Positions 24,714-36,594 of a DNA stretch of 64,000 bases are shown one piece after another. The notes beneath the pieces are model-generated. The model was not told where the DNA came from. It searched no databases and worked only from the letters and a program-made list of their open reading frames with translations. Every line of letters starts with the position of its first letter. Position 1 is the stretch's first letter. Source of the stretch: Acidobacteriota bacterium. GTDB taxonomy: Bacteria; Acidobacteriota; Terriglobia; Terriglobales; Acidobacteriaceae. Position numbers and translations under genes: made by a program. The stretch spans positions 2,070 to 66,069 of the forward strand of contig JAFDVW010000028.1 in the NCBI GenBank assembly GCA_018268755.1. The letters run 5' to 3'.

Positions 24714-27182
24714 TTAGAGAAAGCGGATCCTGTAGGGCGTTCCTGCTTCCATCTCCAGGCGGATACTTTCTCCAGAAGCCTGGGCAAACACAATTTTGCG
24801 ACCTGCGGCGTCCACCGACTGGACGCGCTGCCCCCGGGGTGGGCGGATCTGCCGTAGGCCACGACCCTCCGCGATTACCTGGGCATCTTTCGCCTTCCCG
24901 TCTTGCCAGGTCAAAGCCACCGTAAGCCCGCCTCGAGCTCGCAAGCCACGAAAGCGCCCCTCTTTCCACGCTGAAGGCAATGCCGGCAGAAAGTGGACCT
25001 CGCCGGCATGGCTTTGCAACAGCATTTCAGCAATGGCGGCCGTCATGCCAAGGTTTCCATCAATTTGGAACTCGGCGCCAATCCGCCCAAAGTTTGCTGT
25101 GCCGTTGCCATTCACATTCTGGCTGAGATGCCGCTGCAGAATCGCGAAGGCCGCTTCGGCATCGTGCAGGCGGGCGAAGGCATTGCAAGTCCAGGAGCCC
25201 ATCCAGCTGCCGGCATTTTTTGCCGCCGGTTGGCGGAAATCAAGCACTTTGCGCACCGCCGCCGCCAGCTCGGGGGTTCCGTCGGGAGTAATCTGATTGC
25301 CCGGCATGAGCGCCCACATCTGCGCGACCTGGCCATTGTGGGGTTCGGCCGCGTCCCAGTCGTCAATCCACTCCTGCAACTGCCCAGTGCGCGGACTAAC
25401 CTGCATAGGTACGAGCTTGCCGCGGGCCGCGGCAAGTTCCCGCTGGAATTCGGCATCCTGGCCGAGGATGTCCGCCGCCTGCATGGTATTGCTGAACAGA
25501 TCGTGGAGAATCTGCATGTCCATGGCCGGCCCCAGACAGCAGGTGGATTCAACACCATCAGGCTTGCGAAATGTATTCTCAAACGACGTCGAGGGATAGG
25601 TCACCAGCCAGCCCTTGGGTCCCGGCGTCAGATGGTCCAGAAAGAACTGGGCGGCTTCCCGCATGGTGGGATACACCCTGCGCAAGAATTGATCGTCGAG
25701 ATGAAATACATAATGTTCCCAAAGATGGTGACAGAGCCAGGCCCCGCCCATCTTCCAGATCGATGGACTCCAATAGATAGGAGCTGTGGTACGCCATAGG
25801 TCGGCATTGTGGTGCGCCATCCAGCCCTTGCAACCGTACATGTTGCGTGCCGTGCGGGCCCCGTCAACTTTGAGTTCTTCGATCAGCGTAAACAAGGGCG
25901 AGTGGCACTCCGCCAGATTCGCCACCTCCACCGGCCAGTAATTGATCTGGGCATTGCAGTTCAGGGTCCAGTTACTGCTCCAGTCGGGACGCAATTTGCG
26001 GTTCCAGATGCCCTGCAAATTGGCGGGCTGTGTCCCCGGGCGCGAGGAAGACATCAGCAGGTAACGGCCGATTTGAAAGTACAATCCCGCCAGTCCAGGA
26101 TCGGTCTGCGGATCAAATTTGAGAAAGCGTTCGTCCGTAGGAAGATTTTCGGGCGGAGCGCCCAGATGAATTTCAGCGCGGTCGAAGATCGCGCGATGGC
26201 TGGCCTGGTGCTCCCTCCACAATGCCTCGCAGCCTCTCTGCATCGCAGCATGCAACACCCGCTCGCACTCTGCTTGCGGGTCCTTGCCTTGGGCGCTGGG
26301 GCTTTTATCAAACCCATTGAAACTGGTGGCTGCCGCGAACAGAAAAACCACTTCATCCGCGCCCTGCACTCGGATCTGCGCCCCCTCGCGAGAAACGCTG
26401 CCGCCCCACGTTACCACCCGCACCTGGGCCTGAAAACGCATGCCTTTCCCTTGTGCGCCATCCTCCCATACCACTGGGTTGGGATGGTTCTCCACAAAGC
26501 CCGGTTCTACATGCGCCGGAGCACGGCCTTGCATCACCAGATCCTGGCCGGAGGCTTTCGTCTGGAAATGAAGCGGACTTTCCAACGTGGCGGAGAGATG
26601 CAAGCTTGCTTGGTGAGAACAGCGATAATGCAACGCAATGACTTGTCCCGGCTCGGAAGCAAAGATCTCGCGCGTATACTCCCGCTCGCCGGCGCGGAAA
26701 CGGACCCGCACCACCCCGTCGCGCAGGTCCAGCTCCCGGCGGTAATCGGTGGGCTCGCCGGAAAAGTCGCCGGCAACGGTCAGCGTTCCCAGCGGCAAGT
26801 ACGATTCGTTCCAGGGACCGATAAAACGCGCCTCGACCAACGCGTCAGCTTCCCGATTCTTGCCTTCCAGTAACAGCTTCCGGACCTCATCCAGATAACG
26901 GATGGCTTCGTAATTCTGCACATCCCGCGGTTCGCCCGACCAGAGAGTGTCTTCATTGAGGTCGAGTCTCTCCTGCCGCGCACCGCCATAGACCATCGCC
27001 CCCAGGCGTCCATTGCCGATAGGCAGGGCCTCAGTCCATTTTTCCGCCGGGGTGCGATACCACAGCAGCGCGTCCGGGCTGTCGGGCTGGATTGCAGGAG
27101 TTGCTTTGGACTGCGCGACAGAAGAAACCGCCGCCACGGCAGCAAGGCTAGAAAGAAATTCTCTACGGGTCACAGGGTCCAT
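24714..27182 (-). CDS. Glycoside hydrolase family 95 protein, alpha-L-fucosidase type, Tat-exported
   Basis: The family hydrolyses alpha-L-fucosyl (in some members galactosyl) linkages by inversion. The 822-residue protein begins [20 protein letters not shown], a twin-arginine signal, so it is exported folded. Family parts are [19 protein letters not shown] near the N terminus, [19 protein letters not shown] with [16 protein letters not shown] (the Asn-x-Asn before NYWP) and PSTSFENTF before [13 protein letters not shown] motif usually read as HRH-x-SHL is here [15 protein letters not shown], so the subfamily is divergent. The start at 27182 is preferred because longer frames run into the RNase E/G terminator. 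No Shine-Dalgarno is clear. Confidence 0.88.
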
Positions 27183-27241
27183 GGATCGTGCCGGTACTCT
27201 AGCAGAGCGTGACGGGGATTTCGAGTGGCTAATCCGCCAAC

Positions 27242-27272
27242 AAAAACGCCCCATTCGCGAGGGAATGGGGCG
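27242..27272 (-). terminator. Rho-independent terminator of the RNase E/G gene
   Basis: Read on the minus strand, CGCCCCATTC (27272-27263) and GAATGGGGCG (27256-27247) form a perfect ten-base stem around a six-base loop, and TTTTT (27246-27242) follows. It ends the long cell-shape and RNase operon 20 bases after the RNase E/G stop. Confidence 0.92.
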
Positions 27273-27293
27273 GATGGGAAAGCGGCCAGGCCG

Positions 27294-30089
27294 CTAGTTG
27301 ATGTCGAACTGTTCCTGGTGCAACGCCGGATCGCTTTTGACGATGATGGTGTGCTTGGTCAGCTCTTCCATCTCCGTCAGCCAGCGGCCGCTGTTGGCCT
27401 TCAGCGCCTTGGCCACTTCAGGATTGACCCGCAGCAAGACATCGGGACGGTCCAGATGATTGGCCAGTTTGCGCAACTCCACGTAAATCTCGTTGCAGAC
27501 GGTGGTGACGGACTTCACGAAACCAGTGGACTCGCAGTACGGGCAGGGCGAGCCGATGGTACGCTCCAGCGACTGCTTGACCCGCTTACGCGTGATCGCC
27601 ACCAAGCCAAAGTCATTGAACTGCAGCGCCTTGGAAGGGGCGCGATCGCTGCGCAGGGCCTCTTCCAGGGCCTGCATGACTTTCTGGCGATTGCGCCTCT
27701 CATCCATGTCGATGAAGTCGATCACGATGATGCCGCCCAAGTCACGCAGGCGGACCTGGCGCACAATCTCCTTCACCGCATCCACGTTGGTTTTGACGAT
27801 GGTGTCTTCCAGCCGGGCCGTCTTGCCGACATATTTCCCGGTATTGATATCGATGGCCACCAGCGCTTCGGTCTGATTGATGACGATGTAGCCGCCACTC
27901 TTCAGCCAAACCTTGGATTTCAGGGCCTTGTTGATCTCGTCGGTCAATCCGAACTGATCGAACAAGGGGGTTTCTTTGGAGTAAAGCTTGACGCGCTTGA
28001 CCAGGGCCGGCTGAAAACGGTTGGCGAAGCGCAGAATGCGTTCATACTCCTGCTCGCTGTCCACCCAGATCACGGAGAAATCAGAGGTGACCTGGTCGCG
28101 CAGCACCCGCTCCACCACATTCAGATCATGGTAGATCAGCGCCGGAGGTTTGGAGGCTTCAGCGCGGGTGCGGATTTCATTCCACAGCCCTTTCAGGAAG
28201 CGAATATCGGCACGCAGCTCTTCTTCGGAAGCGTTCTGTGCGGCGGTGCGCACGATAAAGCCGCCATGGCCGTTTTCCCGCTCACTGATCACGATCCGCT
28301 TCAGGCGCTGGCGCTCCTCCTCGGAGGAAATCTTGCGCGACACGCCGGTGTGATTCACCGTGGGCATGTAGACCAGGAAGCGCCCCGGCAAAGCGATGTG
28401 GCTGGTGATGCGGGCGCCCTTCTTGCCGATGGGCTCCTTGGCGATCTGCACCAGGATTTCCTGCCCTTCCTTGAGCAGGTCGCTGATCAGCGGCAGGTTC
28501 TGCGGCTCGCGGCGACGGAAGCGGCGTCCGGCATTGCCCTTACGGCCGCGCTGTCCCCCACCTCGGCGTTCGTGTCCCGGGCGCGGAGCGCGCTGGGTGT
28601 AGCTCGCGGTCCCGGCGGGAGCGCGCACTTCTACGCGCGCATCCACGGTGCCGTTGCCACGCGCTTCCGCGTCCAGCAAAGCCTCGGCTTCCGCCTGGGC
28701 CTCTTCCAGCTCGTCTTCCTCTTCGCCGGCTTCGTCCACCGGAGCTTCGGAGCCTTCCACTACCTCTTCGACTGCCGCGGAGAAGGCCGCGTCGCCCCCC
28801 TCTTCATCTTCGCCGGAAGCGGCCAGCTCGGGCGCTGCGTCGGCATAGCCTTCCGCCGCCTGGGTCTCTTCCTCGACATCGTCGTCTTCGAAGGCCGCGT
28901 CTTCTTCCAACTCTTCCATGTAAGAAGCCAGATCGGCTTCGTCCTCTTCAATCTCTTCTTCTTCCATGGTGCCCGCAGAAGCCGCCACCAGGGGCGTTTC
29001 TACAGGTTCGGAAACTGTGACCGCGCGATCTTCGGGAAAACCAGGTTCTTCCGCCTCTTCCTCGGCAAATTCCTCTTCTTCGATTTCTTCCCGCACCGGA
29101 CTTTCGCCAAACACCTCGGCAACGTTCTTCTGGTGCTGCCGCTGCAATTCCGCGTCCCAGGGCGAGGTCACCGCGGTTTCCATCTCGCTGGCAGCGTGTT
29201 CGAATGCCTGCGAGGCCGCCCCTAACTCCGCCGCTGCGGATGGGACCTCGGCTGGTTCCGCGAAAATGGGTTCATCCTCGGGGAAAGCCTGCGCCACCTC
29301 CGCCGGCCGGGTTTGCTCGGGTTCCACTTTTGCTTCCTGGACGGGAGCGCTCACCGGCGCCGGCGCCAGGCGTTGATATTTGGAAATCGATTCCCCGGGC
29401 AACAGAATGGGCTGGTAACCGGCGGGCGGACCGTATTCCACGTGCTCGGAACGGCGTCCTTCGCGCGGCTCGCGCCCTTCCCGTGGCTCTCGCGACCCAC
29501 GCGGCTCCCGAAGTTCCGCGGGCGGACGTGCCGACCGCGACTCTTGCCCGGCGCGTTCACTACGCTCCGGTCCCCGTTCACTGCGCTCGTTGCGGTCACT
29601 GCGCTCGCTGCGATCGTTGCGATCACCGCGACGGCCGCGCCGGCGGCGACGGCCACGCCAGCCTCGTCCTTCGCCGGCGTCCGCACCTTCTTCCTGAGCC
29701 CGCGGCGCATCCTGGCTCTCGCCATCCGCGAATTCAGGGGAAGCGATGCTGTCTTCTTCGCTGCTCTCCAACCCCGGCTCCGCCGCGGTCAGCGCCTCGC
29801 TGCGGGCGATGGGAACCGTGACCACGTTGGCGGGCAACTCTTCGCCATCCTCGGGGTCTTGCAGCTCCATGAAATCGGAAACATAGAGGAAGGCATCGCG
29901 TTCCAGCCCGATGTCCACAAATGCGGACTGCATGCCGGGAAGCACGCGGGTGACACGCCCTTTGTAAATGGAACCCGCCAGGGTGTATTCGTTCTCGCGT
30001 TCGAGGTAGATTTCTGCGAGGAGGTCGTCCTCCACCAACCCGACTTTGGTTTCGTGGGGTGTGGAAGACACAAACAATTCTTTTGTCAT
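27294..30089 (-). CDS. rne: Ribonuclease E/G family endoribonuclease with a long charged insert in the S1 domain
   Basis: The enzyme cleaves single-stranded AU-rich RNA in mRNA decay and rRNA/tRNA maturation. Conserved parts are the S1 start (IYKGRVTRVLPGMQSAFVDI, residues 41-60), the S1 end (EGQEILVQIAKEPIGKKGAR, 541-560), the catalytic aspartates in VAIDINTGKYVG (D747) and IIVIDFIDMDE (D791), and the zinc-link CPYC (849-852). Between the two S1 halves lies an insert of about 455 residues (about 76-532): Arg/Glu-rich basic stretches (141-215, 495-530) and an acidic stretch (335-470). In E. coli the scaffold is C-terminal; here it is internal. A GGAG precedes the ATG. It follows rodA, as rng follows mre genes in enterobacteria. 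Confidence 0.92.
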   Translation of the reverse strand: MTKELFVSSTPHETKVGLVEDDLLAEIYLERENEYTLAGSIYKGRVTRVLPGMQSAFVDIGLERDAFLYVSDFMELQDPEDGEELPANVVTVPIARSEALTAAEPGLESSEEDSIASPEFADGESQDAPRAQEEGADAGEGRGWRGRRRRRGRRGDRNDRSERSDRNERSERGPERSERAGQESRSARPPAELREPRGSREPREGREPREGRRSEHVEYGPPAGYQPILLPGESISKYQRLAPAPVSAPVQEAKVEPEQTRPAEVAQAFPEDEPIFAEPAEVPSAAAELGAASQAFEHAASEMETAVTSPWDAELQRQHQKNVAEVFGESPVREEIEEEEFAEEEAEEPGFPEDRAVTVSEPVETPLVAASAGTMEEEEIEEDEADLASYMEELEEDAAFEDDDVEEETQAAEGYADAAPELAASGEDEEGGDAAFSAAVEEVVEGSEAPVDEAGEEEDELEEAQAEAEALLDAEARGNGTVDARVEVRAPAGTASYTQRAPRPGHERRGGGQRGRKGNAGRRFRRREPQNLPLISDLLKEGQEILVQIAKEPIGKKGARITSHIALPGRFLVYMPTVNHTGVSRKISSEEERQRLKRIVISERENGHGGFIVRTAAQNASEEELRADIRFLKGLWNEIRTRAEASKPPALIYHDLNVVERVLRDQVTSDFSVIWVDSEQEYERILRFANRFQPALVKRVKLYSKETPLFDQFGLTDEINKALKSKVWLKSGGYIVINQTEALVAIDINTGKYVGKTARLEDTIVKTNVDAVKEIVRQVRLRDLGGIIVIDFIDMDERRNRQKVMQALEEALRSDRAPSKALQFNDFGLVAITRKRVKQSLERTIGSPCPYCESTGFVKSVTTVCNEIYVELRKLANHLDRPDVLLRVNPEVAKALKANSGRWLTEMEELTKHTIIVKSDPALHQEQFDIN

Positions 30090-30467: not shown

Positions 30468-31568
30468 TTAATTCACAAAGCGGCGCATACGCACATTCAT
30501 CACGATGCCCAATGCCAGAAACATGAATAGGACGGAGGATCCGCCATAACTCATCAACGGCAGGGGTATCCCCGCGACCGGCATGAAGCCAACCACCATG
30601 CCGACGTTGACCAGGATGTGGAAGCTAAGCACCGCCACCACGCCCATCACCAGAAACGTGCCAGCCCGGTCAGGTGCCGTCTGTGCGTTCTGGATCAACC
30701 TCATTAATACAATAAAGTATAGCAGTAGCACTCCCATCGCGCCTACAAATCCGTGTTCCTCGGCAAAAGCCGCAAAAATGAAGTCGGTCTGGGGAATGGG
30801 CAGAAAGGCCAGATGGGTCTGGGTTCCCGTGCTGCTGCCCCAGATTCCTCCCGCGCCCACCGCGATCTTGGATTGTAAAACTTGATACCCCGCCCCCTGG
30901 CTGTCCGCCTCCGGCTCCAGAAAGCTGGTCAGCCGCTGCTGCTGATAAGGCTTCAGAATGCGCACCTGGGGCAGGAAAAACACCACTCCCACCGCAACCG
31001 CCCCCACCAGGGCCACCGATAAGGCCTGCCGCAGTTGTAGGCCCCCCAGGAAAATCGCGATGGCGGCAATCGGAATATAGGTCAGCGAGGTACCCAAGTC
31101 AGGCTGGACCAGGACCAGCGCCATGGGGAACCCCACCAGCAGACCGGCCTTAAAAAAGTCCGGCCAGGAAAGTTCCCGGTGCCGCAGGTCGGCAAAATAT
31201 TTGGAGACGGCCAGAATCAGGACCAGCTTCACCCACTCGGAAGGCTGAAAGTGCGCCCCACCCGGCATCTTGATCCAGCGCCGCGCTCCCAGATATTTCT
31301 GCCCGAACAGCAGCACCGCCATCAGCGAAGCCAGCGCGGCAATGTACATCCAGTGGGCCCGGTCGAGCAGCACATGGTAGTTGAACAAACTCATGCCAAA
31401 CATCGCGCCCACTCCGGCAATGATCCAATACACCTGCTTGATGTGGGCTCCCGCGAATTTAGTATGGGCGGTGGCGCTGCGGATCTCCCATACCCCCAGG
31501 GCGCAGATCATCAATACAAAGATCAGCAGCCACCAGTCAAAATCGCGGAATGAAACGTAGCGAGACAT
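30468..31568 (-). CDS. rodA: Rod shape-determining SEDS glycosyltransferase RodA
   Basis: RodA polymerises lipid II into glycan strands for side-wall growth with PBP2. The 366-residue membrane protein has about ten hydrophobic segments. Key parts are the catalytic aspartate in VQPDLGTSLTYIP, the FTLQPSEW-like AHFQPSEWVKLVLILAVSKY, and GFMPVAGIPLPLMSYGGSS in the last loop. It follows mrdA by 70 bases, most of which is a four-unit heptad repeat ending about 17 bases before the rodA ATG (a weaker unit brings it to ten). Identification is secure. Confidence 0.96.
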   Translation of the reverse strand: MSRYVSFRDFDWWLLIFVLMICALGVWEIRSATAHTKFAGAHIKQVYWIIAGVGAMFGMSLFNYHVLLDRAHWMYIAALASLMAVLLFGQKYLGARRWIKMPGGAHFQPSEWVKLVLILAVSKYFADLRHRELSWPDFFKAGLLVGFPMALVLVQPDLGTSLTYIPIAAIAIFLGGLQLRQALSVALVGAVAVGVVFFLPQVRILKPYQQQRLTSFLEPEADSQGAGYQVLQSKIAVGAGGIWGSSTGTQTHLAFLPIPQTDFIFAAFAEEHGFVGAMGVLLLYFIVLMRLIQNAQTAPDRAGTFLVMGVVAVLSFHILVNVGMVVGFMPVAGIPLPLMSYGGSSVLFMFLALGIVMNVRMRRFVN

Positions 31569-31638: not shown

Positions 31639-33606
31639 TTATTGGATGCCCGGAGCGGCCGCCGCCAAGGGCGCCCGTTGTTTCGGTACGTCAACATAAA
31701 AGCGCCCCGCCTGCAGGCGGCTGTCGCCCCCCTCGGGATCCGGCGTGCTCCACACCGCGCCTACTTCCGCCTGGTTGGAACTGGCCACCTTGGTGGGCAG
31801 GCGGCGCTGCTTCTCCACATAGGCCTTGATCACCTGGGCCGCGGCGCGGGCGGCAAAATATCCATGTTCGCCTTCTTCCAGCAGCACACTGACCACAATT
31901 TCGGGATTGCGCCGCGGGGTCACCCCCACAAACCAGCCGTTGTCCTTGAACTTCGCCTTGCCCATCGCGCCCAGGCGGGCTTTGGCGGCATTGCTGATGG
32001 TCTGCGCGCTGCCGGTCTTGCCGGCGAAGTCGATGCCTTGCAGATGCGCGCTGGGCGCGGTCCCGATGGGGTTGACCACGTTGGCCATGGCGTCGGTGAT
32101 AATCTCCCAGTTTTCCGGGTCCAGGGGAATATTCACCTCATCCGGCACGGCCGAGACATTGCGCATGCTTTCCGGTAAGTCCTTGGGAAAAGCCACGTGC
32201 GGCCGGCGCAACGCGCCGCCGCTGGCAATGGCGCCGATCGCCCTCGCCATCTGGATCGGTGTCGCCGCCACCGCCCCCTGTCCAATCCCTACCGAAATCG
32301 TCTCGCCGGCATACCACTTCTGCTTGAAGTTGCGCGCCTTCCATTCTTCGGAAGGCATGACCCCGGTGACTTCCTGGGGCAGATCAATGCCTGATTTCTG
32401 CCCCAAGCCAAACATGGTGGCATACTTGGCGATGCGCCCGATCCCCAGCTTTTCCGCCAGGCTATAGAAGAAGACATCGCAGGATTGATAGATCGCTTTG
32501 GAGATGTCCACCACGCCGTGGGTGCGGTGCTCGGCCACCACCCAGCATTTAAAGTAGCGTCCGTAGAAGTTGGCCCCGCCGTTGCACACCACCTTCATGT
32601 CTTTGGCCACGCCTTCCTGCAATCCGGCCGCGGCCATGATGATCTTGAAGGTCGATCCGGGGGCGAGCTGGGCCTGGATGGCCTTGTTCAACAGCGGCTT
32701 GTTGGGGTCGGTCACCAGCTTCGACCACTCATCGCGCGAGATGCGCACGGCAAAGTGGTTGGGATCAAAGGTAGGCCGGCTGACCAGAGCCAGGATCTCG
32801 CCCGTGCGCGGGTCCATGGCCACCACTGCCCCATTGCGGTCTCCCAGCGCCTGCTCGGCGGCGATCTGCAGGTCGATGTCCACGGTCAGCTTCAGCTGCC
32901 GGCCCGGCTCCGCGTTCTTCTGCTCCAGCTGGCCCACTTCCTTGCCGCGGCTGTTGACCACCACCTGCCGCGAGCCGTTCTTGCCCATCAGGATGGCGTT
33001 GTATTCCAGCTCCACTCCCGACTTCCCTACCACGTCGCCGGGGTTATACAGCTCCCAGCGCGGGGAGTTGAGCATCTCTTCGCTGACCTCGCCCACATAG
33101 CCGATCAAATGGGCCATGAAGCCGTTGCGGGGATAGAGGCGGCGGTGCGCCATGATGGTATCGAGTTCCGGCAGCTCGTTGCGGTGCGATTCGATGAAAG
33201 CCAGCTCGTCGGGAGTGATGTCCTCTTTCAGGTAGATGGGCTGATATTGCGGCATGCCGTTGAAGCGGCGGATGCGCTCCTGAATGTCTTTGGGATCGAG
33301 GTGCAGGCCGGCGGCGATCTCATCGACGTCCGCCATCAGGTCGCGCGTGGAGTCGCGCAACAGCAGCGCTGTGAACGAGGGATAGTTGTCGACAATGACG
33401 CGGCCTTCGCGGTCGAGAATTTTGCCCCGCGGGGCGAGGATCGGCACATTGCGGATGCGGTTGCGCTCGGCTTGCGTGGCATACAGTTCGTTCTGCATGA
33501 CCTGCAAGCGCCACAGACCGTACACCAGCACCAGAAACACGCCCAGTATCATGTACTGCACCGCCGTCAGGCGGATGGGCGAAACTTTTTCATCGCGGCC
33601 GAACAT
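31639..33606 (-). CDS. mrdA: Penicillin-binding protein 2 (peptidoglycan transpeptidase)
   Basis: PBP2 cross-links side-wall peptidoglycan in the elongasome. The 655-residue protein has one N-terminal membrane helix (MILGVFLVLVYGLWRLQ, about 19-35), a PBP dimerisation domain and a transpeptidase domain. The active-site motifs are present: SxxK in APGSTFKIIMAA, SxD in YQSCDVFFYSL (the PBP2 form of SxN) and KTG in FAGKTGSAQT. The C terminus has a proline-rich tail. It lies between mreD and rodA in the cell-shape operon. The start codon is preceded by an unusual sequence made of heptads rather than a normal ribosome binding site. Confidence 0.96.
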   Translation of the reverse strand: MFGRDEKVSPIRLTAVQYMILGVFLVLVYGLWRLQVMQNELYATQAERNRIRNVPILAPRGKILDREGRVIVDNYPSFTALLLRDSTRDLMADVDEIAAGLHLDPKDIQERIRRFNGMPQYQPIYLKEDITPDELAFIESHRNELPELDTIMAHRRLYPRNGFMAHLIGYVGEVSEEMLNSPRWELYNPGDVVGKSGVELEYNAILMGKNGSRQVVVNSRGKEVGQLEQKNAEPGRQLKLTVDIDLQIAAEQALGDRNGAVVAMDPRTGEILALVSRPTFDPNHFAVRISRDEWSKLVTDPNKPLLNKAIQAQLAPGSTFKIIMAAAGLQEGVAKDMKVVCNGGANFYGRYFKCWVVAEHRTHGVVDISKAIYQSCDVFFYSLAEKLGIGRIAKYATMFGLGQKSGIDLPQEVTGVMPSEEWKARNFKQKWYAGETISVGIGQGAVAATPIQMARAIGAIASGGALRRPHVAFPKDLPESMRNVSAVPDEVNIPLDPENWEIITDAMANVVNPIGTAPSAHLQGIDFAGKTGSAQTISNAAKARLGAMGKAKFKDNGWFVGVTPRRNPEIVVSVLLEEGEHGYFAARAAAQVIKAYVEKQRRLPTKVASSNQAEVGAVWSTPDPEGGDSRLQAGRFYVDVPKQRAPLAAAAPGIQ

Positions 33607-33616
33607 GGAATTCTTC

Positions 33617-33636
33617 GTTGGCGGTAGCCGTTCGCT
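33617..33636. repeat. Degenerate heptads just before the mrdA start
   Basis: GTTGGCG, a six-base GTAGCC and GTTCGCT lie ten bases upstream of the mrdA ATG. They are fewer and more decayed than at nusB or rodA, but the location relative to the start is the same. On the coding strand the sequence next to the ATG reads CCAACGAAGAATTCC, close to CCAACGACGAAATT before nusB. Confidence 0.5.
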
Positions 33637-33757
33637 CCAGCACCGAGGGCTGCCTATCTATTTTGAATTCTAATCCCCGTGCCTGGCCCCCAGATGGGGC
33701 ACCAAGGTGCTCCCAGCACCAAGGTCACTTTCCCGCCCCTGCCCCATTGCGGCGGCC

Positions 33758-34267
33758 TCAGGCCCGCTGCTTGAAGCGGTCCAGTAACATGAACAGAGGC
33801 ACTGCCAGCACCGCGTTGGCCAAGGCCGCTCCCAGTTCATGCGGCCAGCTCCAGGCCAACTCCAGCCGGACCAGTCCGCGGGCCACCGAGAAATACACCA
33901 CTTCGTGGACAATATAGAAGAACAAGGTCACCAGAAAGCGCGAACCGGCATTCTCCACATCCAGCTTCACACCCAGCGAGGAAGCGCCATACCCCACCAC
34001 GGTCTTGGCGATGCCATACACCCCGATGGGAAAATTCGCCAGCGCATCCTGCAACATACCAATCACGCTGCCGGTCAGCAGACCGGCTATCTGGCTGCGC
34101 CTCGCCACCGCGAAAAAAATCGTCACCAGCAACGGCAGGTCAATGAAGTGCACCCGCTGGGGCAGAAACGCCTGCAGGAATACGGCCAGCAACGGCACCG
34201 CAATGGTCACCGGAATACTGAAGCGGTAGACCTCAATCTGCTCGCTCGAGGTGTAGGTGATGGGCAC
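33758..34267 (-). CDS. mreD: Rod shape-determining protein MreD
   Basis: MreD is a small inner-membrane part of the elongasome that pairs with MreC. The 169-residue product has about five hydrophobic segments and the typical start FSIPVTIAVPLLAVFLQAFL, the LTGSVIGMLQDALANFPIGVYG segment (the usual G-x-x-x-D region) and the C-terminal LAVPLFMLLD. It starts at a GTG two bases after the mreC stop, so translation is probably coupled. Between its stop and mrdA are two short GC hairpins (for example GGTGCT-CCC-AGCACC at about 33706-33720). Confidence 0.9.
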   Translation of the reverse strand: MPITYTSSEQIEVYRFSIPVTIAVPLLAVFLQAFLPQRVHFIDLPLLVTIFFAVARRSQIAGLLTGSVIGMLQDALANFPIGVYGIAKTVVGYGASSLGVKLDVENAGSRFLVTLFFYIVHEVVYFSVARGLVRLELAWSWPHELGAALANAVLAVPLFMLLDRFKQRA

Positions 34268-34268
34268 G

Positions 34269-35378
34269 TTATTGGTCCTGTCCGCTGGCCCCGGTCTGCG
34301 GCGGAGCGGGGGGCTTGGCTGGTTCCCCTTGGGGGGCGGCCTCCGGCGTCTTGTGGACCGGCGGCTTGGGCTGCCCGGAAACCGGAGAAGCAGGAGTAGG
34401 AGAGGCGGCAGCGCCGCTTGCCGGGGTTGCTCCCGGAGCAGCCGGCTTGGCCCCCACCACCGTCCCCGGCGCAGGCTGCGGAACCGAAGGCAGACGGTCC
34501 GCCAGAATATCCACGGCGCGGGCCGCGCCTTCCTCGGCCAAGCTGGGTTCCCGCTCCTGCTTCTCGGTAATGATCAATACTTCCTCAATTTTGCTCAGGT
34601 TGGCGGCGGGCTTAATGCGAATGTCCAGGAACGACTCTCGCCCCTTCTCCACGCTCATCACCGTGCCCACCGGCAGGCCCTTGGGAAACACCTGGTCGCC
34701 GCCGCTGGTCAGCACCTTGTCGCCGGGATGCACTTGCTCGTCGGCCATGACTTTTTCCAGGAGCACCTGGCCGGTGGGGCTGCCGCGCAGGATGCCCTGC
34801 AACCGCGAAGACTCCAGAATCGCCCCCGCCCCGCTGGTCTGATCGTTGATCAGCAGCACTTGCGAGGTCGAGTTGTACACCCGCAGGACCTTCCCCACGA
34901 TGCCTTCCGCGGTAATCACCGGCAGGTCGACGGCCAGGCCGTCGCGTTCTCCCTTATCGATGTAGATGGTGCGCGACTGAACGCTGCCGCTCGAGCCGAT
35001 GACCTGGGCGGCCACGGTCTTGGAGATGAACTGTTCCTTGAACCCCAGCAGGGCCTGCAAGCGGCGGGCCTGATGGGCGTCGTCCGACAAGCGTACCTGC
35101 TCCAGGCGGAGCTGTTCAATTTGCTGGCGCAGGGCGCGGTTCTCGTCGCGCACCCCACGCAGGTAGAGATAGTTGCGCCACAGATTGCCGGTGGAGGTCT
35201 GCGCCCAGATGAACCCTTTTTCCAGGGGCGTGACCGCACTCACCACCCAGACCCGGATCAAGCGGCTGGACTCCATGTCATTCTTGCGCCGGACCTGCAC
35301 TCCCAGGCCAATGACCTGAAGAAACAAGACCCCGGCCAGAATGCTCACATTGCGGTAACGGGTGAGAAGGCTGTCCAT
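34269..35378 (-). CDS. mreC: Rod shape-determining protein MreC
   Basis: MreC links MreB and the PBP2-RodA pair in the periplasm. The 369-residue protein has one membrane helix near the N terminus (VSILAGVLFLQVIGLGVQV, about 9-27), a coiled coil (about 70-110, RDENRALRQQIEQLRLEQ), and the double beta-barrel core with GSSGSVQSRTIYIDKGERDG and DLPVITAEGIVGKV. A Pro/Ala-rich tail of about 80 residues follows the core and is longer than in most MreC proteins. Upstream lie three tandem heptads (TTTCCAG type). It follows mreB by 75 bases. Confidence 0.95.
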   Translation of the reverse strand: MDSLLTRYRNVSILAGVLFLQVIGLGVQVRRKNDMESSRLIRVWVVSAVTPLEKGFIWAQTSTGNLWRNYLYLRGVRDENRALRQQIEQLRLEQVRLSDDAHQARRLQALLGFKEQFISKTVAAQVIGSSGSVQSRTIYIDKGERDGLAVDLPVITAEGIVGKVLRVYNSTSQVLLINDQTSGAGAILESSRLQGILRGSPTGQVLLEKVMADEQVHPGDKVLTSGGDQVFPKGLPVGTVMSVEKGRESFLDIRIKPAANLSKIEEVLIITEKQEREPSLAEEGAARAVDILADRLPSVPQPAPGTVVGAKPAAPGATPASGAAASPTPASPVSGQPKPPVHKTPEAAPQGEPAKPPAPPQTGASGQDQ

Positions 35379-35390
35379 GGCGCCAGCGAA

Positions 35391-35411
35391 TTTCCAGTTT
35401 CCAGTTTCAGG
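35391..35411. repeat. Tandem heptads of a second sequence type before mreC
   Basis: TTTCCAG, TTTCCAG, TTTCAGG on the plus strand, thus CTGGAAA-type units on the coding strand, ending 12 bases before the mreC ATG. The sequence differs from the RTTRGCY heptads but the period and the position before a start codon are the same. Confidence 0.6.
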
Positions 35412-35453
35412 TTAGACGACAAGGTGGCGGCGCCCGGTGCGGTGGTTTCCCTG

Positions 35454-36482
35454 CTACTCGATGGAAATCTTCCGCAGCAGTTTGAAATCGCTGAGCATCT
35501 TGCCGGTGCCCAGCACCACGCTGCACAGCGGATCATCGGCGATGGAAACCGGCAGGCCGGTTTCTTCCCGGATGCGCTTGTCCAGGTTCTTCAGCAGCGC
35601 GCCGCCGCCGGTCAGCACAATGCCGCGATCGCTGATGTCGGCGGAAAGCTCGGGCGGCGTACGTTCCAGGGCCACGCGGATCGCATTCATGATCGTGGAA
35701 ACGCACTCGCTCAATGCCTCGCGGATTTCACTGTCGTCGACGGTGATGGTCTTGGGCACGCCCTCGATCAGGTTGCGGCCCTTGATCTCCATGGTGAGCG
35801 GCTTGTCCAGCGGATAGGCGGAGCCGATTTCCATCTTGATCTGTTCCGCGGTCCGCTCGCCCACCAGCAGGTTATATTTCCGCTTCAGATAATTCATGAT
35901 GGCTTCGTCCATCTGGTTGCCGGCCATGCGCACGGAACGCGAGTAGACTATGCCGCTCAAAGAAATGACCGCGATGTCGGTGGTGCCGCCGCCGATATCC
36001 ACCACCATGTTGCCGGAGGGCTCGGTGATGGGCAGTCCGGCGCCGATGGCCGCCACCATGGCCTGCTCCACCAGGTGCACTTCGCTGGCTTTGGCGCGAT
36101 AGGCCGAATCCATGACCGCGCGCTTCTCCACCTGGGTGATTTCCGAAGGCACGCCGATCACGATGCGCGGATGCACCAGCATCTTGCGGTTGTGCGCCTT
36201 TTGGATGAAATAGTTCAACATCTTCTCGGTGACCTTGAAATCGGCGATGACGCCGTCTTTCATGGGCTTGATGGCCACGATGTTGCCCGGCGTGCGCCCA
36301 AGCATTTCTTTGGCTTCCTTGCCCACGGCCTCGACTTCGTTGGTGTTCTTGTTCAAGGCCACGATGGAAGGTTCGTTGACCACGATGCCTTTGCCGCGCG
36401 CATAAACGAGCGTGTTCGCGGTGCCCAGGTCAATGGCGAGGTCGCTGGAAAAAACACTGAAGAGCGACCGCAGGTTGGTCAT
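35454..36482 (-). CDS. mreB: Actin-like cell-shape protein MreB
   Basis: MreB forms membrane-bound filaments that place side-wall synthesis. The 342-residue form begins [20 protein letters not shown], with an amphipathic N terminus and phosphate-1 loop [13 protein letters not shown]. The other ATPase motifs are [16 protein letters not shown] and [15 protein letters not shown]. MreB-like [18 protein letters not shown] is present. An ATG at 36518 would add 12 unlike residues; I prefer 36482, though neither has a strong ribosome binding site. It is the first shape gene behind a good promoter at 36595-36623. Confidence 0.96.
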
Positions 36483-36594
36483 GCGTGATCCGCTGGAGTG
36501 GAAACCATTCGATGACATATGCAGCTTTGCCTTTTTGCCCGCGTGGCCGTTGCTCCGCGCTGGTGCTTTCCCTTACAACGGCGCGCCGATCCTT

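Follow-up and report, generated by a model that had tools for sequence, protein, structure and literature searches.

The window analysed here is a 64,000-nucleotide stretch of an Acidobacteriota genome (Terriglobia; Acidobacteriaceae), and on its reverse strand, at 27294..30089, lies a gene for a 931-aa member of the RNase E/G family (PF10150, E 4.9e-103, 344.7 bits against a cut-off of 25.5) that also carries the PF20833 C-terminal domain. Its reading frame is intact and open across all 931 codons, and it is the sole PF10150 gene in the 5.36-Mb assembly, which is rated 100% complete. Pfam places the catalytic domain at residues 567-837 and the RNase E/G thioredoxin-like domain at 848-930; its S1 match is weak and limited to residues 39-82. 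The metal residues D747, N749, D791 and D794 and the zinc-link cysteines C849 and C852 are invariant across the 69 RNase E/G sequences that we aligned. Upstream, on the same strand, are rodA (30468..31568; TIGR02210 above its cut-off) and the shape cluster mrdA (PBP2), mreD, mreC and mreB (31639..36518), and directly downstream is a gene for a glycoside hydrolase family 95 protein, an alpha-L-fucosidase-type family (24714-27254, reverse strand). An antisense open reading frame (27225-29225, forward strand) had no match in a Pfam search. Elsewhere in the window, at 1831-2121, there is a tandem array of 4.3 copies of a 67-bp unit (95% match); each unit starts with GCCCCGC, has GCGGGGC towards its end and could therefore fold into a hairpin.

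We consider the enzyme to be RNase G-type, a term that we prefer to RNase G because its top-scoring NCBIfam model, PRK11712 (ribonuclease G), reaches 508.7 bits and so falls below the equivalog cut-off of 594. The match to this model is broken into two stretches by an insert, and PRK10811 scores 262 bits against a cut-off of 908. The C-terminal tail of RNase E-type enzymes is absent, as only 61 aa follow the core and all of them belong to the folded C-terminal domain. Gene order, too, supports the assignment: the arrangement mreBCD-mrdA-rodA-RNase is comparable to the mreBCD-yhdE-rng arrangement of E. coli (mreC-mreD-yhdE-rng), and, among acidobacterial loci with enough upstream sequence, rodA lies beside 95 of 104 copies with a long insert and 27 of 34 with a short loop, but beside none of 12 tailed RNase E-type copies. 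E. coli RNase G thus shares with the window enzyme its catalytic core, C-terminal domain and mreBCD neighbourhood, and differs from it in having 13 residues where, in the same frame, the window enzyme has 455. Since it is an orthologue of the RNase G type that carries the insert, the latter is not simply a relocated RNase E tail.

The insert, of about 454 residues (aa 78-531; 28497..29858), separates the first half of the S1 domain (about aa 35-77; 29859..29987) from the second (from aa 532; 28335..28496), all on the reverse strand, in good agreement with the approximately 455 residues that the first-pass annotation had placed at 28494-29864. The first half, which contains F57 and F67, two invariant residues of the 69-sequence alignment that are usually regarded as RNA contacts of S1, stops just past strand 3 (FLYVSDF, aa 67-73), and the second restarts at ISDLLKEGQEILVQI (aa 535). 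A phmmer comparison with E. coli RNase E (2bx2) aligned residues 4-73 and 531-862, with residue 73 corresponding to E. coli residue 80 and residue 531 to residue 93; 12 residues of the E. coli enzyme are therefore replaced by about 457 in the window enzyme. The insertion point between S1 strands 3 and 4 is that of the S1-insert enzymes of alpha-proteobacteria and plants.

An AlphaFold2 model built from the same 69-sequence alignment bears out these boundaries. In the catalytic body and the two S1 halves most blocks have a pLDDT above 90, whereas it is below 50 for residues 82-220, 242-256, 258-308, 328-384, 393-453 and 479-521, so that nearly the whole insert is predicted to be disordered; the parts of it above 50 are the region of a conserved motif described below (about 64-69) and two helices, 310-327 and 456-478. 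Foldseek by itself failed to span the insert, with low TM-scores, but VIA-align spanned it, placing both S1 halves of the model jointly on E. coli S1 (1smx; 79 of 81 residues, model residues 39..573, Z 10.6) and model residues 35..657 on the Caulobacter S1/5'-sensor fragment (4oxp; 173 residues, 2.4 A, Z 20.3). Because the two halves come together on one S1 fold, the insert lies inside that fold, and the concern that it might lie outside it can be set aside.

Could so long a low-complexity stretch be the product of a frameshift or an assembly join? This reading can be regarded as refuted by comparative data. Three related loci from metagenome-assembled genomes (L102, L109 and L110) do carry a single frame change in or near the insert, probably as assembly errors in GC-rich low-complexity DNA, but the window frame is open throughout, as are those of about 100 related loci with in-frame inserts, among them complete genomes and isolates (L118, L138 and L141). 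In addition, the insert evolves as coding DNA, with an overall pN/pS of 0.59 against 12 near relatives.

PF10150 genes are present in 172 of 199 acidobacterial genomes, and they encode two types of enzyme: an RNase G-type, whose S1 loop, measured in the frame of the window enzyme, spans 7-862 aa, and an RNase E-type with a loop of 7-15 aa and a C-terminal tail. The RNase E-type paralogue (families f5, f16, f18, f23, f26, f45, f47, f48, f51, f56, f65 and f67) resembles the window enzyme in family and in having an arginine-rich disordered region, but differs in forming a separate clade (100/100), in bearing a tail (about 180-330 aa long for most of the copies measured) and in not lying beside rodA. 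A tree of the catalytic core, from which the insert had been left out, puts every insert of at least 100 aa (range 124-862 aa) on one branch (support 98/93; present in 98% of bootstrap trees), and the inserts are grouped likewise in a larger quick tree. The alignment of acidobacterial RNase E/G by which the insertion was to be dated thus indicates a single origin of inserts of this length within the Acidobacteriota; the named members of the resulting clade include Terriglobia, Bryobacterales and Blastocatellia.

Long inserts and tails do not occur together. Tailed RNase E-type genes were found in 47 genomes (E 1e-100 or better), none of them genomes with a long insert, and in the 19 genomes in which both types were measured the loop of the RNase G-type copy is just 9-44 aa. 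As there was essentially one gain of the insert, this exclusion amounts to one phylogenetic contrast, to which no p-value can be attached. Several families have neither tail nor insert, from which it follows that a scaffold is not obligatory. A further scaffold position may be represented by one RNase G-type enzyme with a short S1 loop (L049, family f41), which appears to be extended at its N-terminus by about 100 aa, arginine-rich and acidic (MSGELKRRRRRGRRGG...), the sole plausible extension among those checked; apparent N-terminal extensions in family f34 (L024, L026 and L088) were rejected as out-of-frame translation over rodA.

The window insert had been described from its sequence as basic-acidic-basic. 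Its charge blocks are real (z = 9.8 against shuffles, with 0 of 200 shuffles as high), but their order is different: the net charge by tenths (-0.24, 0.07, 0.07, -0.06, -0.20, -0.26, -0.36, -0.39, -0.28 and 0.19) traces an acidic lead, a basic box, the conserved motif, a long acidic stretch and a basic end. In 97 of 100 inserts, charge segregation exceeds that of every shuffle. The basic box contains an arginine box, RGWRGRRRRRGRRG (aa 142-155; 29625..29666, reverse strand, as for all elements of the insert), with 84% amino acid identity and a pN/pS of 0.15 against the 12 near relatives, and such a box was found in 98 of the 100 inserts longer than 300 aa. The acidic stretch includes the block GTMEEEEIEEDEAD...EEETQ (aa 373-410; 28860..28973; pN/pS 0.35), which has comparable blocks in related inserts. 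The basic end is a C-terminal block at aa 503-528 (28506..28583), and in a set of 110 inserts the final 60 aa carry a net positive charge in 83%. The window insert therefore combines the segregated charge blocks and arginine-rich patches by which degradosome scaffolds and formers of BR-bodies are recognised; in Caulobacter RNase E, it is arginine-rich charge blocks that drive condensation (PMC10412687).

The two helices of the model also lie in the insert. One, SPWDAELQRQHQKNVAEVFG (aa 309-328; 29106..29165), is predicted to be helical at 310-327 (block pLDDT about 81) in a region partly conserved among near relatives, and the other is an acidic helix at 456-478, within aa 449-480 (28650..28745; block pLDDT about 91; pN/pS 0.30). 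We considered whether the insert might tether the RNase to some part of the cell, such as the cell-shape machinery or the membrane, given that the gene is linked to mreBCD-mrdA-rodA across the phylum. We think this improbable, as short-loop copies without an insert, and E. coli rng, share the linkage and, by eye, there is no amphipathic helix of membrane type, both predicted helices being polar or acidic.

The most conserved element of the insert is a linear motif, PILLPGESISKYQ (aa 227-239; 29373..29411), the outcome of the search for short motifs that the first-pass annotation had proposed. A pN/pS of 0.06 points to strong purifying selection at the protein level. Its 12-residue form, P-[IF]-[VIL]-L-P-G-E-S-[LI]-[SA]-K-Y, followed by [RG], recurs in 88 of 88 Terriglobia inserts longer than 300 aa, with LPGE invariant, the next residue S, T or F and the remaining positions nearly invariant, and at a relative position in the insert of 0.33 (sd 0.05). 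In a shuffle control the most frequent 5-mer was found in only 10 of 88 inserts, against 88 of 88 for LPGE[STF]. A further copy, less well matched (LPGESLSRH), is present in many inserts of Acidobacteriaceae. We searched by codon pattern for other proteins that might carry the motif as co-clients and found none in the window's own genome or in those of 20 relatives, in a search by exact pattern that misses divergent forms and gave no match even in the RNase G gene of two of the 20: the single match in its own genome, and 19 of 19 in the relatives, were in the RNase gene, and a reversed control gave 0. The motif is absent from the 12 inserts longer than 300 aa of lineages outside the Terriglobia, seven of which, Blastocatellia included, have FERV, often as FERVxDD. 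Inserts of Blastocatellia and related inserts (L059, L061, L065, L084, L166, L167 and L168) have one to three FERVxDD-type elements each, and these are possibly a different docking motif.

The rest of the insert has evolved rapidly, and one could argue from this that it is a neutral low-complexity expansion of a permissive surface loop, with no specific function. Outside the conserved elements its identity is 29% and its pN/pS 0.70, compared with 0.11 for the catalytic body, and its length is variable. Neutral expansion nevertheless seems to us very unlikely, since it would have to accommodate a motif with a pN/pS of 0.06 in 88 of 88 inserts, arginine boxes in 98 of 100 and charge segregation beyond that of shuffled sequences.

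Inserts at the same position of S1 are already known. In alpha-proteobacteria and plants they are about 50-150 aa long, charged and disordered (PMC4245959; PMC5436854), and the insert of Caulobacter RNase E (4OXP) and its kin resembles the window insert in its place in S1, its charge, its predicted disorder and the presence of some helix. What is new here is the greater length (454 aa in the window, 124-862 aa in the clade), the location in the tailless RNase G-type paralogue, and a motif of its own. In contrast, the two alpha-proteobacterial cases that we examined are RNase E enzymes with both S1 insert and C-terminal tail: that of Tistrella has a 63-residue S1 loop and a long tail, and that of S. 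meliloti a long charged S1 loop, of uncertain length, and a tail ending GGWWQRRGFF. As insert and tail coexist there, one cannot generally stand in for the other. The suggestion of a lineage-specific degradosome design holds in part, in that the long inserts form one clade within our acidobacterial sample, but an insert inside S1 has precedent in alpha-proteobacteria and plants. In the open-access literature we found no account of S1 inserts in the RNase E/G of Acidobacteriota, although subscription papers may hold an earlier mention.

The C-terminal degradosome scaffolds of E. coli and Caulobacter RNase E share with the insert their disorder, arginine boxes, charge blocks, short motifs and a fast-evolving background; the window insert differs in being internal to S1, and none of the known docking motifs of those scaffolds was recognised in it. 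A WW element is found in five of 19 acidobacterial RNase E-type tails, against one of 144 S1 loops or inserts. In these five (L014, L017, L025, L027 and L031, of families f18 and f48) it lies near the C-terminus (KRHWWRR, RRLWWRKR) and resembles the GWW PNPase-binding site of Caulobacter.

What, then, does the insert do? We favour the explanation, to which we would assign a probability of roughly 55%, that the loop between S1 strands 3 and 4 has grown into an arm of about 454 residues that serves as a degradosome or condensate scaffold, the role that the C-terminal tail of RNase E has elsewhere. The arginine boxes would hold RNA, the basic and acidic blocks would favour multivalent self-association, and the short motifs, above all LPGES(I/L)xKY, together with the helices, would dock one or more partner proteins. 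This explanation is supported by the conserved linear motif and the predicted helices, both of which a docking scaffold would be expected to have. Since the arm begins and ends in S1, it adjoins the RNA channel and the S1/5'-sensor cleft, where it may affect RNA entry, and there would be four arms if the enzyme, as we infer, forms tetramers as E. coli RNase E does. Possible partners encoded in the genome are PNPase, RNase J and DEAD-box helicases; a search of the genome for RNase Y gave no match. As the motif differs between classes, with FERVxDD in Blastocatellia, one common partner is not required. A precedent for docking at this position is that the Caulobacter S1/5'-sensor fragment carrying the S1 insert binds RhlB (PMC4245959).

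The main rival of a scaffold, in our view, is a role chiefly in cis on RNA: an autoregulatory lid whose basic boxes catch the substrate, with the acidic stretch imitating RNA and gating the S1/5'-sensor cleft. The Caulobacter insert has a helix that reaches into the predicted RNA site and may imitate RNA with its acidic side chains, and in Arabidopsis deletion of the S1 insert greatly reduces activity (PMC4245959); the window insert does have a long acidic stretch and arginine boxes. A lid of this kind would be a clearly less likely main function than a scaffold, and two features speak against it: in the most conserved element the core (PxxLPGESxSKY) is largely without charge, which sets it apart from an RNA mimic or an RNA-binding box, and the variation in length from 124 to 862 aa fits a scaffold better.

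Our observations have a bearing on how RNA decay in this phylum is viewed. A 2011 review table listed the Fibrobacteres/Acidobacteria group with an RNase E/G of 511 aa and, on the basis of protein size, no predicted degradosome (PMC3071783). The enzymes of 800-1340 aa in Terriglobia, a common soil group, contradict that entry for Acidobacteria. Going beyond the scaffold itself, we tentatively suggest, as a possibility we hold somewhat short of even, that a large clade of Acidobacteriota without RNase E builds its degradosome on RNase G by means of a giant S1-loop scaffold, with LPGES(I/L)xKY as the Terriglobia docking site of a new core partner. If this is true, scaffold function would gain a further position, inside a domain of the catalytic half of an RNase G paralogue, and the motif would be a short, directly testable bait for the RNA-decay machinery of Acidobacteriota.
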